Below, one piece after another: positions 305-28,215 of a stretch of 28,215 bases of DNA. Made by a program: the position numbers and the translations under genes. Source of the stretch: a virus; the IMG/VR virus record IMGVR_UViG_3300023172_000143, positions 1 to 28,215 of that record, one strand, 5' to 3'. The first letter of the stretch is position 1; the number at the start of each line of letters is the position of its first letter. The notes below the pieces were generated by a model. The model saw only the letters and a list, made by a program, of their open reading frames with translations. It did not search any database and was not told where the DNA came from.

Positions 305-2116
305 ATGGCTGCTATTATTTCTGATAAGTTTCGTATTTTTAACGCGAAGCAATTCCTAGAATCTCTCACTGAGGGCGCGACTGACACCAGTGCAGAGCGT
401 TCACGAATGTATTTCTTCGTGGGTCGTCCACAACCATGGAGAGCATACTTAGAAGTCTACAACAAAAATGCAACGGCATTTACTGTAGGCGATGAAGTAT
501 ATGTTGGAACGTATGGTTCTACTACTTTCCGTGCCACGATTGCTGCTGTTTATGATAGTGCCCTTCTACTGACCGACGTTTTTGGCAGCAATGGTGTTAA
601 CTCTGCTCCTGCATTAGGTAGTGCCCTTAAGTGCCGCACTGGCGGTGCAGGAGGATCCGACACTGGTGCCACCGCAACTTCTGGTGTTTATCGCTACGCT
701 GACGAGAACATCCCACCTCTTCCTCTAGACAATCAGAGAGAAAAGATTGCCCTCTATGACGAAATCATTGCTGCTAAGCGCATTACAGATTCGTATGCTA
801 GAACTGTAGTTCGTCGTTACAACTGGGATCTAGTTGCAAACCCAAGATATGATATGTGGAAGCCTGACTACTCTGACACCCCAGGTGGCGGTGGTCAGAT
901 TGGCAAATCAACTGCTACTGGTGCAACTAGCATTGCTGATGCTAAGTTCTATGTAATGAACTCCCAGTATGAAGTCTTTAAGTGCCTCTATAACGGTGAA
1001 GATCCTTCAAACACCACTGGTCAGGATGCAACCGAAGAACCATCAGTAGCTGGAGCAAACTATGATGCTGCTACTGGTCTCTATACAGAGACAACAGGTG
1101 CTGGTTACATCTGGAAGCACATGTATACCATTCCAACCGATGATGTCTTGAAGTTCCTTTCTTCTGACTTCATGCCAATCGTTCTTCCTTCCAACCCATC
1201 TAGACAAGCAGTAGGAGCACTTGCTGTTGCTGGTGCTATCGATGCAGTTGTTGTTGAAGATGCTGGTGCTGGACTACCTGTTTCACAAACTCTCTACACT
1301 GCAATCAAAGGTGATGGTTCAGGTGGTGTCGTAGAACTAGTAACTAATGGTGCAGGCACAATCACTTCTGCTAGTGTTCAAGCACGCGGATCTGGTTATA
1401 CCTACGGAAACATTCTTCTAGGAGTTGGTAATCTGTTCAGCGATGCTGGATTGAGCACTCCTGTCAATGGTTATTCTGGAAATGCTGCAATTGAGGCAAT
1501 TCTTCCTCCTCAGGGTGGTCATGGTTCTGATCACGAAACAGAACTTAATGGTAAGCGTGTTATGACGAACATTCGTCTAACCTACGCAGAAGGTTCAGGT
1601 GACTTCCCTGTTGACAACGACTTCCGTCGTATTGGTATCATTGCTGATCCTTACAACCAAGGAACCACAACATTTGCAACTGCAGATACTCTTTCTGGTC
1701 TCAAGTCACTCAAGATTACTGGAGCAACTGCAGATTTCAACGTTGATGAGAAGATCGTTCAGACAGTAACTGGCGGAACCGCATATGGAACCGTTGTTTC
1801 TTGGACACTCGATAGCGGTTCTACAACTGCTGGTGTTCTTAAGTATATCCAAACTAATGATGCACACACCGATCAAGGTGTTGTAAGAGCATTTGAAAGC
1901 AACGCAGCAAATGCAGTTACTGGAGAAACCTCCGCTGCATCAGGAACAGTTGACACTGGATATGCTGGTTCACTACTGGGCGTCACGTTTGCTGCTGGTC
2001 TTGCAAATACCGAGATTGAGAACAACTCAGGTGAGGTTATCTACATCGAGAACCGTCGTCTTATCACTCGTGCTCCTGACCAGATTGAAGACATCAAACT
2101 AGTCATTGAATTCTGA
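305..2116 (+). CDS. 8: Baseplate wedge subunit gp8
   Basis: This is a homologue of T4 gp8, a dimeric subunit of the baseplate wedge that links gp7 and gp6 to the outer baseplate. The N-terminus carries SDKFRIFNAKQFLES and a FVGRPQPW segment, like T4 TSKFR...FGRSEPW. The middle has RRYNWD (T4 RRDWGD), a VFKCLYNG segment (T4 VYRCLD) and GYIWKHMYTIP (T4 GYVWEYLFEIP). Next comes RRIGIIADP (T4 RQISIITNP). The C-terminus SGEVIYIENR...DQIEDIKLVIEF closely matches T4 SGEMIYMENR...DQTEEINILFTF. It has 603 residues against 334 in T4. The extra length comes from an insertion near residues 50-120, a GSGY-type repeat region at about 310-400 and a further beta segment at about 470-570. The gene sits between a late promoter cluster and a strong terminator, so it may be transcribed as a discrete unit. 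Ribosome-binding sequence before the ATG is weak. Confidence 0.95.
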   Translation: MAAIISDKFRIFNAKQFLESLTEGATDTSAERSRMYFFVGRPQPWRAYLEVYNKNATAFTVGDEVYVGTYGSTTFRATIAAVYDSALLLTDVFGSNGVNSAPALGSALKCRTGGAGGSDTGATATSGVYRYADENIPPLPLDNQREKIALYDEIIAAKRITDSYARTVVRRYNWDLVANPRYDMWKPDYSDTPGGGGQIGKSTATGATSIADAKFYVMNSQYEVFKCLYNGEDPSNTTGQDATEEPSVAGANYDAATGLYTETTGAGYIWKHMYTIPTDDVLKFLSSDFMPIVLPSNPSRQAVGALAVAGAIDAVVVEDAGAGLPVSQTLYTAIKGDGSGGVVELVTNGAGTITSASVQARGSGYTYGNILLGVGNLFSDAGLSTPVNGYSGNAAIEAILPPQGGHGSDHETELNGKRVMTNIRLTYAEGSGDFPVDNDFRRIGIIADPYNQGTTTFATADTLSGLKSLKITGATADFNVDEKIVQTVTGGTAYGTVVSWTLDSGSTTAGVLKYIQTNDAHTDQGVVRAFESNAANAVTGETSAASGTVDTGYAGSLLGVTFAAGLANTEIENNSGEVIYIENRRLITRAPDQIEDIKLVIEF

Positions 2117-10522: not shown

Positions 10523-13500
10523 AACCGATACCTTTGAACAACAAAGGGTAAAAATTAATGAAATTGGATCGCAGATTTTTAATATTTCTGCTGGTGGTAG
10601 TGATTTAGCTACGGGTCTATTAAAAATTGGCGATGGTTCGAGATTAATCCCATCTCTATCTTTTACAAATGATCCCCAACTTGGTATCTATAGACCAGAA
10701 ATTAATACTTTAGGTATCGTAAGTTCAACAAAAAATATTGTTGATTTTTCAAGTCAATCTGTTTTTTATTACAGAGATTTAATTCTTAGAAAAAGAATTT
10801 TAGGAGATACAAACCTCACCATTAATAATGCTGGCAGTGGATATGATGCTGGTCAATACACAGATATATCTCTTATTGGTGGTTCTGGTGAACTTGGGAC
10901 AGTAGATATTGTAGTAACAGAATTTATTGGAACTATCAATAGTGAAGGAAGAAATTATACTCCAGGAACATATACAGCCGTTTTATTAACTGGTGGATCT
11001 GGTTCTGGTGCATCTGTTGATTTTCTCATCGATCCAATTACGGGTGATATTAATGATGGTGGATCTGCATATGTTCCAGGACAATATCAAAATGTTCCAC
11101 TTACTGGTGGTTCTGGATCTGGAGCAACAGCAAACATTACTATTGGCGGAGATACTACTCTCTCTGGTAGCGTTACTAACGCTGGTTCTGGATATACAGA
11201 TAATATTTACAGCAATATTCCGCTACGAAATGTTGCTACCGCTACTTATACGGTAACTACCGTAGCAAATCCATCTCCTCTACCAAATTCACTATATCAA
11301 ATTAATGGAGTAACTCAACAAACTCTTACTCTTGATAAAGGAAATACATATAGATTTGATATTTCCGATGCTAGTGTTAGTGGACATCCTTTTGGATTTC
11401 TTGATGGTTCTGGAAACCTATTAGATTTCCAATTTTACTTAATTAATAAAGTTGGTTCAGAGGGTAGTGCTGGTTCGTTTGTTGATCTTATTATTCTCCC
11501 AGAAGCTCCAACAGAAACAATTCAATATTATTGCACGTCCCATGCTGGTATGGGAGCAACAATTAGTGTTGTATCTGGAACTACTGGAGTTTATGGAAAT
11601 GGAGCATTAGCAAACTTTGAGGTTGTTGGCGGTGTTGTAACTAATTTTGTTTTAGCAGATCAAGGAAGTAGATATAAACAAAACGATCAACTAATAGTTA
11701 CATCAATTGATGCTGGTGGATCTGGATCTGGACTTGTTTATACAATTAATAACGTTGTTTTTACAGGAACCGTAAATGATGTACAAATTCAATCTTCTGG
11801 TCAAAATTACGTTCTTGGAGATCTTTTATCAGCATCCGATTCTGATTTAGGAGGTGGAGGAGGTTCTGGATTTGAGTTTGCTATATCTTCTTCTCCTGGA
11901 ATTATTAGAGACTTAAATTTCATCTCCAAGGGATCTGGATATCAAGTAGGAGATTTGTTAACACTATCAACAGGATTTACTGGTGTTACTGGAGACTTTA
12001 TTGTTAATATAAGTGGACTTGCTGGAAACGCAACTTCAGGATCAAACGTAGTAACTGTTGCTTCTACGGTTGGCATCTATTCTGGAATGCAGATTACTGT
12101 TCTTGGTGGATCTACGGGAGACTTCCCACCAAATGTAACAGTCGATCAAGTTACAGGAGGAACAACATTTACTGCTAGCGATGTTGCTAATGCTACTGGA
12201 GCGTTGTCAATGGATTTGACAAATCCAGGCAACCAAGAAGATGTTCTAGTTTCCTCTACTGCAAATATAAATCAAGGCGATATCGTAACTGTTGCATCTG
12301 GATCGGGAGCACTACCAGCAAATACAACAATCACTTCAGTTAATGAGTTGTCTGGTAGTATTACATTATCAAACACTCCTACTGCTGGTGGTCCAGTTGT
12401 TTTAACAATTAGTCCATCTTTTGGAGTAGGAACAACGCCATTTGAATATGAAGTTCAATCTCTTGGATCTGTAGAATCTTTTCTAGTAAATAATCCTGGT
12501 AATGGATACAATGTAAACGACCTACTAACAGTAGCACCCGAAGATTTAGTCCAACCAATTACATATACTGTTACTGCAAGATCTGTATTAACTATTACTT
12601 TCACCACGTCAGTTTCAGCGACATTCTTTAGTGTTGGTAATTTTATTGATTATGATAATGCTGGATTTATTAATTCTTATGAAATTATTCAAGTAAATAC
12701 TTCTGGATCAAATCTCCAATCGTTATTAATTGTTGGAGATAATTTAGATTCGGGAAGCGTAGTTGTAAAACAAGGCACATCATCTCCACAATTAACTGTC
12801 GATACATCAACTGCTGGTAATAGATTTTTGATAGATACGGGATCTGGACCTCAACTAACTCCAGATTTGACGTTGTATGTCGGAAACACTTATATTTTTG
12901 ATACCACAGATTCAAGTAACGATTCGCATCAGTTTGCGTTTTCAGAATTTAGAGATGGTATTCACGCACCAAGTTTAGTAGAAAATGTATCTACTACCCT
13001 GTCTTCTACATCTGCAGTAATTACTGTTGCTTCTACAACAGGAATTCTTGCAGGTATGCAAGTTACTAAGATAACTGGATCTGGTGAAATTCTACCTGGA
13101 GTTACGGTAGAAAGTGTTGATTCTGCAACTCAAATTACATTATCACAAATACCAACCGTAAGTGGAAATGTTGTTCTTAGTTTTTCTGGCGTAGAATACA
13201 CCTCTGGTATAACAAGAACTGCAGCAGCGGTGACAATTAAAGTTGTAGATACAACACCAAACCTTTATTATTATTGTAATAATTCTGGTGCCACACATGC
13301 AGATATGGGTGGTATTGATAATCAAGAAGCAACTGTTACTATTGATCCAAATAATCCAAAAACATTTGGAAGTGGATTTCAATTAATTGCAAATACTATT
13401 AGCTCCAGCGATACACTAACTTTTGATATTCTAGATGGCGAAATAACTTCAGAAAATATTGTTACGGATGACATTAACGCCACAGAAGGAACTATTGCAA

Positions 13501-26239: not shown

Positions 26240-27262
26240 ATGGGAATTTTAAATGTTGGTATTTCAAAAGCGAACTCATCTATATTGCTGCCACAAATTT
26301 CAACGGCACAAAGAAATGCCCTACCGCCAGAAAAAGGACACATAATTTTCAATACAGATGATTTTGAAGTTCAATTCTACAACGGAGTAGAGTGGAAAAA
26401 TGCAGGAGCTGCTCCATTTGAAGCAAATGGTGGAACAGTGACAGATGTTGGCGGATATAGAATTCATACTTTCACTGGAGATAATGCGTTTAACGTTACC
26501 GCTGGAACTGGACTTGTAGAATACCTAATTATCGCTGGAGGCGGTGGCGGAGGCGGCTGGGGCGGCGGCGGAGGCGCTGGTGGTTATAAATCCTCTGTTC
26601 AAGGAGAATTATCTGGTGGTGCAACAACAGCAGAAGGAGCTTTATTAGTAGAAGTAGGATCATATTCAGTTAAAGTTGGTCAAGGAGGATCAAGAGGAAC
26701 TACTGCATACACTGGAGGTGGTGCTGGTGGAGATTCTTGGATTATTGGTCCTGGCGGAATTAATATCACATCTTTAGGTGGAGCTGGTGGCGGTTGGTGG
26801 CAAGGTAATGTTCCTCCAGTAGGTGGTTCTGGTGGTGGTGGATCAGGAACTGGCAATGGTTCTGCGGGAACTGCTGGTCAAGGAACTGCTGGAGCTGCTG
26901 GTCAAGGTAATCAATCTAGTCCTTATCTAGGTCATGGTGGAGGTGGAGGAGCTGGTCAAGCAGGATCTCAAGGTTCTGGTGTTACTGGCGGTAAAGGTGG
27001 AGATGGTTTGACCTCCGCTATCACTGGATCTGCTGTTCAACGTGGCGGTGGCGGTGGCGGACACTCCCCTGGATTGGGCAATAGTGCCACTTCTGTTGGA
27101 GGCGCTGGCGGTGGCGGTGGTGGTGGAAACTACTACAACGCAGCACAAGCAGAAGATGGTCAGGAAAATTATGGAGGTGGAGGTGGAGGAAACTATGGAG
27201 ATAGTTCTAGACTATGTGGTCTTGGTGGAAAGGGTGTTGTTATTATTAGATACCCAATCTAA
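26240..27262 (+). CDS. Glycine-rich adhesin-like fibre-tip protein, copy 1
   Basis: This 340-residue protein has an N-terminal part (1-55) with LPQISTAQRNALPPEKG, IIFNTDD and FYNGVEWKNAG, an attachment-type module shared with the neighbours. After a short beta region (YRIHTFTGDNAFNVT) comes VEYLIIAGGGGGGGWGGGG, the start of the glycine-rich domain seen in many phage and bacterial surface proteins. About 230 residues of Gly-rich blocks follow (GGAGGGWWQGNVPPVGG; GHGGGGGAG; GGGGGGHSPGLGN). It closes with GGKGVVIIRYP, the usual end of that domain. Poly-Gly blocks of this sort form polyglycine-II helices in the gp38 adhesin of T4-like Salmonella phage S16. Receptor binding is therefore a reasonable inference. 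It is paralogous to the next gene. Confidence 0.85.
   Translation: MGILNVGISKANSSILLPQISTAQRNALPPEKGHIIFNTDDFEVQFYNGVEWKNAGAAPFEANGGTVTDVGGYRIHTFTGDNAFNVTAGTGLVEYLIIAGGGGGGGWGGGGGAGGYKSSVQGELSGGATTAEGALLVEVGSYSVKVGQGGSRGTTAYTGGGAGGDSWIIGPGGINITSLGGAGGGWWQGNVPPVGGSGGGGSGTGNGSAGTAGQGTAGAAGQGNQSSPYLGHGGGGGAGQAGSQGSGVTGGKGGDGLTSAITGSAVQRGGGGGGHSPGLGNSATSVGGAGGGGGGGNYYNAAQAEDGQENYGGGGGGNYGDSSRLCGLGGKGVVIIRYPI
26777..26849 (+). repeat. 73-base perfect repeat, copy 1 (second copy at 27841-27913)
   Basis: These 73 bases are identical to 27841-27913 and encode GGAGGGWWQGNVPPVGGSGG plus the following GGSG in both glycine-rich genes. A second identical pair is 26684-26727 with 27751-27794 (44 bases). 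Identity at third codon positions points to recent duplication or gene conversion. Confidence 0.9.
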
Positions 27263-27285: not shown

Positions 27286-28215
27286 ATGTCTAAAATTGTT
27301 GCTGATCAATTAAATGCTACAGAAGCATATAAAGTCCCTAGTTATACAGAAGCACAAAGAGATGCTTTAACTGGAGTTGAAGAAGGATTTTTAATTTACA
27401 ATGATACTTCGGAGCAACTAGAACTTTATTATGCTGGGGAATGGAGAAATATTGGAAACGTAACACAAGCAGGTGGCGGCGGCATTGAAGCTGTTGGAGG
27501 ATCAGTATCAACTTCTGGTGCTTATAAAATTCACACATTTGCAAATGATGATACTTTCACAGTTTCTTCTGGTGGAGGAGAGATTGAATACCTAGTTATC
27601 GCTGGAGGCGGCGGCGGAGGCGGCTGGGGCGGAGGCGGTGGTGCTGGAGGATACCGCAATTCTGTTCTCGGTGAGCAATCTGGCGGAGCAACAGCTGCAG
27701 AATCTAGAGTTACCGTTCAAGAAGGAACCTATTCAATCAAAGTTGGAATTGGAGGATCAAGAGGAACTACTGCATACACTGGAGGTGGTGCTGGCGCGGA
27801 TTCTTCTATCATTGGTCCTGGAGTAAATATTATTGCAAAAGGTGGAGCTGGTGGCGGTTGGTGGCAAGGTAATGTTCCTCCAGTAGGTGGTTCTGGTGGT
27901 GGTGGATCAGGAAGTGGTAGTGGTTCTCAAGGAACTGCTGGTCAAGGAACTGCTGGAGCTTCTGGTCAAGGTAATCAATCTGGTCCTTATCTAGGTCATG
28001 GTGGAGGTGGTGGTGCTGGTCAATCTGGATCCCAAGGTTCTGGTGTTATTGGTGGTAAAGGTGGAGATGGTTTGATTTCTCTTATTACGGGTCAAGCGAT
28101 TACTAGAGGCGGTGGAGGTGGTGGACACTCTCCTGGTCTAGGTAATGCAGGAAAATCTATTGGAGGCGCTGGTGGTGGCGGTGGTGGTGGAAACTACTAC
28201 AACGCAGCACAAGCT
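27286..28215 (+). CDS. Glycine-rich adhesin-like fibre-tip protein, copy 2 (3' end outside window)
   Basis: This frame is open for 310 codons to the window edge. It begins MSKIVADQLNATEAYKVP, then YTEAQRDALTGVEEG, FLIYNDTSE and YYAGEWRNIG, paralleling the anchor of copy 1. After IEYLVIAGGGGGGGWGGGG it follows copy 1 block for block (GGSRGTTAYTGGGAG; GGWWQGNVPPVGG; GQGNQSGPYLGHGGGGGAG; GGGGGGHSPGLGN; GGGNYYNAAQA). By alignment with copy 1, about 45 residues including GGKGVVIIRYP should lie beyond the edge. The N-terminal 100 residues have diverged clearly, while the Gly-rich core is nearly the same, also at DNA level. It is probably a second receptor-binding tip, and the array may continue downstream. 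Confidence 0.85.
   Translation, partial: MSKIVADQLNATEAYKVPSYTEAQRDALTGVEEGFLIYNDTSEQLELYYAGEWRNIGNVTQAGGGGIEAVGGSVSTSGAYKIHTFANDDTFTVSSGGGEIEYLVIAGGGGGGGWGGGGGAGGYRNSVLGEQSGGATAAESRVTVQEGTYSIKVGIGGSRGTTAYTGGGAGADSSIIGPGVNIIAKGGAGGGWWQGNVPPVGGSGGGGSGSGSGSQGTAGQGTAGASGQGNQSGPYLGHGGGGGAGQSGSQGSGVIGGKGGDGLISLITGQAITRGGGGGGHSPGLGNAGKSIGGAGGGGGGGNYYNAAQA
27841..27913 (+). repeat. 73-base perfect repeat, copy 2
   Basis: Partner of 26777-26849; the same reading phase is used in both genes. Confidence 0.9.

Follow-up and report, generated by a model that had tools for sequence, protein, structure and literature searches.

Domains nested within other domains are a known kind of protein architecture, and in cupredoxins such as azurin and plastocyanin the N-terminal His ligand is followed by a strand and then by a loop that is highly variable. 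In amicyanin the ligands come in the order His ... Cys-x2-His-x2-Met, and uninterrupted members of the viral family described below share both this order and its spacing. Amicyanin and plastocyanin are fold matches of a low-confidence model of one phage domain, found with Foldseek, but they have no sequence-level match to it, and they differ from the interrupted phage domain studied here in that the latter carries a 72-residue insert, has often lost its ligands, and is part of a large virion protein. The closest described proteins are the phrog_6005 proteins of cyanophages (S-PM2p086, SRSM4_148 of S-RSM4, and Syn1_099), which are full-length orthologues that share the interrupted domain, here called domain 2. 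We found no description of this interrupted domain, or of the wide marine-virus family that is its parent, in the open-licence literature searched, where cupredoxin in combination with cyanophage, tail fiber, or phage structural protein gave nothing relevant. Taken as a whole, our analysis makes it very probable that domain 2 is a cupredoxin-like sandwich that anciently received one inserted module and now serves as a structural scaffold whose metal site has decayed.

The window, by which we mean the whole 28,215-nucleotide stretch analyzed, is a virus record from the IMG/VR collection. Its 1,623-residue open reading frame (ORF) matches the phrog_6005 profile over its full length (E=0, 1715 bits), and this match together with a conserved gene order places it in that family. 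Thirty-five phage records matched the ORF with at least 80% coverage. The orthologues, at less than 60% identity, come from phages of Synechococcus and Prochlorococcus, most of them Kyanoviridae, and the window's protein is less than 60% identical to any phage record among the matches listed. Compared with the named cyanophage proteins, it has its own module count and a longer Cys-His loop. The gene follows a gp8-like gene and a gene for a DUF4815/gp7-like protein and precedes T4-GC 512, with the same neighbors in reference phages. The DUF4815 protein has 2,694 residues, and its relatives are annotated as gp7 baseplate wedge initiator or as "virulence-associated" structural protein. For C-terminal stretches of the family, P-HM1, P-HM2, and MED4-213 have matches within an ORF whose annotation reads gp7 or baseplate wedge subunit. 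Because of the gp8- and gp7-like neighbors, the protein can be placed in the baseplate region, a location suggested by gene context. A preliminary description of this DNA had called it a phage fibre; a virion structural protein encoded beside baseplate genes falls short of proving that.

Several further features were observed. The gp7 baseplate wedge initiator ORFs of P-HM1 and P-HM2 (L033 and L035) hold a cupredoxin-like domain of the domain 1 type together with C-terminal stretches related to the window's protein, and in these phages the gp7 gene and the window-type gene look as if fused or unseparated. The orthologue in S-B43 (L029; MN018232.1 158988) has a shorter N terminus, and the genes before its ORF lie on the opposite strand, in contrast to the usual gp7-like neighbor. 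In the window itself, the neighboring ORFs 26240-27262 and 27286-28215 both match phrog_2295 and the glycine-rich Pfam domain Gly_rich_2 (slightly below the cut-off for the second ORF), which suggests a tandem duplication.

Table 1. Coordinates of the features discussed, as positions in the window and residues of the 1,623-residue protein
Feature	Residues	Nucleotides	Strand	Remark
gp8-like baseplate wedge gene		305-2116		Pfam Gp8; upstream of the ORF
ORF, virion structural protein of T4-like marine cyanophages	1623 aa	10500-15371	+	phrog_6005, profile match
Domain 1, uninterrupted cupredoxin-like	about 265-360	11292-11579	+	H296, C345, H348, M351
Free-standing module copy A	about 509-571	12024-12212	+	
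Free-standing module copy B	about 581-639	12240-12416	+	
Domain 2, N-terminal half of cupredoxin-like sandwich	776-822	12825-12965	+	
H810		12927-12929	+	domain 2, N-terminal half
Insert in domain 2	823-897 (ends +/- about 2)	12966-13190	+	linker and one module
Module within insert	834-897	12999-13190	+	
Domain 2, C-terminal half	898-945	13191-13334	+	
C926		13275-13277	+	domain 2, C-terminal half
H933		13296-13298	+	domain 2, C-terminal half
M936		13305-13307	+	domain 2, C-terminal half

The starting observation was that the upstream His and the Cys lie 49 residues apart in domain 1 (H296-C345) and 116 residues apart in domain 2 (H810-C926), with a repeat module accounting for the excess. Both distances were correct, as was the translation of module residues into bases, and the excess corresponds to a single module copy of about 64 residues. 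Comparison with uninterrupted relatives gave a whole insert of about 72 residues that combines the module with the linker APSLVENVST. The Cys motif is CTSHAGM in domain 1 (C-x2-H-x2-M) and CNNSGATHADM in domain 2 (C-x6-H-x2-M). The longer Cys-His loop that had been reported is therefore real, and it is a lineage feature, with x2, x5, and x6 all present among orthologues.

The module was also said to stand free twice in the same protein. Copies A and B resemble the inserted copy well above chance: local scores were 110 and 90, compared with 32 +/- 6 and 34 +/- 7 for shuffled sequences, and 0 of 500 shuffles reached the observed values. The phmmer domain E values were about 1e-6 and 1e-3, and tblastn of the module within the window's own record gave 3.4e-8 for copy A and 1.8e-4 for copy B. 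The segment thus occurs independently of domain 2, as free copies in this protein and its orthologues and in other PHROGs. For proteins of phrog_6002 and phrog_17105 the match is confined to the module (E about 1e-3 and 4e-4), and no nesting in a cupredoxin-like domain was seen in these matches. When the module was removed from domain 2, the flanks aligned with domain 1, as predicted: the score rose from 68, for the N-terminal half only, to 76 (shuffled, 29 +/- 5), and the alignment extended through YYC...H.MG. Domain 1 was considered as the direct uninterrupted counterpart of domain 2 and set aside; it can be aligned, but a free marine-virus domain is nearer in sequence.

That domain emerged from the search for uninterrupted relatives proposed in the preliminary description, which found them elsewhere in marine viruses as well as at the orthologous position. 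Searching with domain 2 returned uninterrupted domains in L027, L028, and MED4-213, with His-Cys distances of 44 to 51, and scanning with these three revealed at least 576 viral stretches with an uninterrupted domain, in various tail and fibre proteins. The closer type, common in marine viruses, reads HPFRFSTT-DGTH-EYTTGVT-LYYYCTNHSGMGG, and domains of the form HPFRFSTT..DGTHGGGSEYTTGVT..LYYYCTNHSGMGG match parts of phrog_27200, phrog_30742, phrog_677, and phrog_708. Both halves occur in like order in this domain and in domain 2, with the shared motifs G-x-T-Y-x-F-D, H-x-F-x-[FL]-S, D-G, E-Y-T-x-G-V, and L-Y-Y-Y-C. Unlike domain 2, the free domain has a loop without the module, a gap of 3 residues, and mostly intact ligands. 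In viral contigs L099-L178 and in L028, L179, and L180, we observed a near-invariant His, DGTH, and YYYC-x2-H-x2-MGG, and no Pfam family scored above the cut-off for these domains. L145, L151, and L174 carry two uninterrupted domains in tandem.

We then have a direct comparison of the two forms. When 50 interrupted orthologues were aligned, profile against profile, with 66 uninterrupted domains, the probability was 99.9 (E=1.8e-31), and the one internal gap, of about 72 columns, held the module. The distance separating the halves has a bimodal distribution: of the 104 domains lacking the module, 89 have 3 residues there, and all 85 carrying it have 72 to 78. The segment is not always present in orthologues, either. 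In Synechococcus phage S-WAM2 (L032) and the viral contigs L037 and L038, the site is empty at the orthologous position, and the N- and C-terminal halves abut (...ALSQTQDG-PGEYAPSTVV...LYYFS..., followed by ITIDPNNP). These three have the module solely as a free-standing copy earlier in the protein, and they share the C-terminal region and the downstream gene with the interrupted orthologues. The gp7 proteins of P-HM1 and P-HM2 were rejected as uninterrupted orthologues of domain 2, because they lack domain 2 and the domain they do have is like domain 1. The module is nested within domain 2, as the preliminary description had suggested.

The structure prediction that it had called for was run on interrupted domain 2, with a natural empty orthologue standing in for the version lacking the segment. 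Modeled with 50 orthologues, residues 770-950 (model numbering plus 769) fold with high confidence (mean pLDDT, 95.9; pTM, 0.87) into a nearly all-beta structure in which the long predicted strands 826-835 and 889-896 bound the insert at both ends. Among viral models, an ACG-2014e orthologue matched nearly the whole length at 0.8 A, and other viral proteins, E5ESI3 among them (1.4 A; TMq, 0.44; 170 columns), matched at 1.4 to 2.8 A (TMq, 0.39 to 0.44; 164 to 182 columns). Matches of the E5ESI3 type are what flanks aligned around a gap of about 70 columns would give. Matches to the PDB were weak. The cupredoxin AcoP was the best of its class (E=0.065; prob, 0.60; TMq, 0.27), and it and a laccase were within the top four. 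The top Foldseek PDB match was to a chain in the virion of Arthrobacter phage Bridgette (8eci_1; prob, 1.00), with 25% identity over 83 columns that possibly fall onto the inserted module.

The Bridgette match raises the question of whether the host domain is instead a generic Ig-like or fibronectin-like sandwich in which His, Cys, and Met are incidental. Antibody and fimbrial sandwiches are numerous among the weak PDB matches, and a sequence-level link to cupredoxins is absent: profile searches of Pfam and the PDB placed neither half of domain 2 among cupredoxins, domain 2 had no match above the gathering score to Copper-bind (PF00127) and related families, and L028 reached only 12.6 bits (E=0.19) against Pfam copper-binding profiles, below the gathering score of 21.2. 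In the PDB, sequence profiles of either part found chance antibody or ribosomal matches only, and a match of the interrupted profile to an IgA Fc receptor (E=0.002) was dismissed as weak and without the ligand motif. However, the uninterrupted family shows H-P-x-R-F-S and LYYYC-x2-H-x2-MG with almost no variation. In addition, the natural empty orthologue L037, from the S-WAM2 clade, was modeled as the insert-free counterpart, and cupredoxins lead its matches: copper nitrite reductase (9e-5), amicyanin (3e-4), and plastocyanin (7e-4). Because the confidence of this model is low (mean, 58.4; core blocks, 67 to 79), these matches are supportive rather than proof. We regard a generic sandwich as quite improbable; the term cupredoxin-like is supported by the predicted fold and not by sequence families.

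The nesting had been presented as a snapshot of module shuffling, and this aspect did not survive. The insert is present once, at one place, in 85 of 88 orthologues. Domain 2 is interrupted in 68 of 71 different C-terminal sequences, for which one change on the C-terminal gene tree suffices. If the inserted module were a fresh copy of the protein's own free module in ongoing exchange, the modules within a protein should resemble each other, which they do, and the number of free modules does vary from 0 to 3 among orthologues, so that shuffling of free copies does occur. Yet the inserted copy is always single, in 85 of 85 carriers, and inserted copies group with the inserted copies of other phages and not with the free copies of their own protein. 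In the module tree, inserted and free copies are separated much more cleanly than expected by chance (10 label changes versus 48 when shuffled). Each of the three copies in the window's protein is nearest to same-position copies in L075, L071, or L040; the inserted copy is 67% identical to that of L075. Mean pairwise identity is 41% for the insert and 50% and 46% for the flanks. Given the grouping by position, the single copy, and the single tree change, recent shuffling is very hard to credit, and the insertion is instead old and held. No direct repeat bracketing the insert was seen in the window DNA, which fits an old event. The nested architecture is old and near-fixed among orthologues.

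Whether the empty site of S-WAM2 is primitive, the insertion having followed the split of its lineage, or reflects loss of the module is a narrower question, and here we see even chances. In the C-terminal tree, the S-WAM2 clade forms a long branch beside the midpoint, and one branch separates off all 68 interrupted rows. When rooted with uninterrupted relatives, the flank tree contradicts this polarity by nesting S-WAM2 within the interrupted group, beside the ligand-less Syn1 and S-RIM32 (99/92). However, a flank tree with S-WAM2 outside that group is not rejected (AU p=0.19), and the C-terminal tree rejects S-WAM2, Syn1, and S-RIM32 as a clade (p=0.012). Thus, long-branch attraction is likely to account for the nested placement.

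Domain 2 had further been described as interrupted between its metal ligands. This part stood for the window, which keeps four candidate ligands (H810, C926, H933, and M936), and did not extend to most orthologues, in which the site is degenerate: the full His/Cys/His/Met pattern, that of a type-1 copper site, is found in 28 of 71 distinct interrupted domains, and 17 of 71 have none of it. Ligand-less examples read YYYDRL in L020-L022 and YYFSPL in Syn1. The set of His, Cys, and C-x(2-8)-H-x2-M is kept in 83 of 89 uninterrupted members, a figure that is biased upward because the Cys motif was itself part of the scan patterns. Exactly at the insertion junction (H822, positions 12963-12965) lies a second His (DGTH), which hardly varies in the uninterrupted family; the window keeps it, and most interrupted orthologues have lost it.

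A functional type-1 copper or other metal site, with H810, C926, H933, and M936 binding copper in the virion, would agree with the retention of all four residues in the window, with the His and C-x2-H-x2-M kept by most of the uninterrupted family in amicyanin-like order and spacing, and with the resemblance of the empty orthologue's fold to amicyanin and plastocyanin. The module might then cap or tune the putative site. The scarcity of the full pattern among interrupted domains and the window's Cys-His loop, lengthened to x6 and off the usual spacing, make copper binding unlikely, and the capping or tuning role, considered jointly with it, is equally so. Given how few interrupted domains retain the whole pattern, we consider copper chemistry less likely than a structural role, and because the site has decayed in most orthologues, copper chemistry is probably not what keeps domain 2. 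Ligands have been lost across much of the interrupted family.

In the structural reading that we favor, domain 2 anciently received one all-beta module of about 64 residues, otherwise a free-standing repeat. The loop that received it lies just past the strand following the N-terminal His ligand. The chain would exit the sandwich after DGIH (residue 822), form the module, and re-enter at VEYTSG (898), with strands 826-835 and 889-896 probably pairing as a ribbon and the sandwich still closing around the insert. Within the baseplate region of the tail, domain 2 would most likely act as a structural scaffold. Tentatively, and with somewhat less than even confidence, we suggest that the module is a surface projection that may serve as a spacer, a contact, or a host-facing decoration.

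A broader scenario, which we hold to be speculative and more doubtful than the projection role, is that a cupredoxin-like domain, possibly one that binds copper or iron, was taken up by marine phages as a stock component of tail and baseplate proteins. In phrog_6005, the site-bearing domain may then have become an insertion platform, with the module replacing metal binding as the selected function and the ligands left free to decay. The locus offers a clean example of one domain lodged in the metal-site fold of a virion protein, and natural filled and empty orthologues, free module copies, and many uninterrupted relatives make it testable. It also points to a cupredoxin-like domain, for which no description turned up in the literature searched, that is common in the structural proteins of marine viruses.
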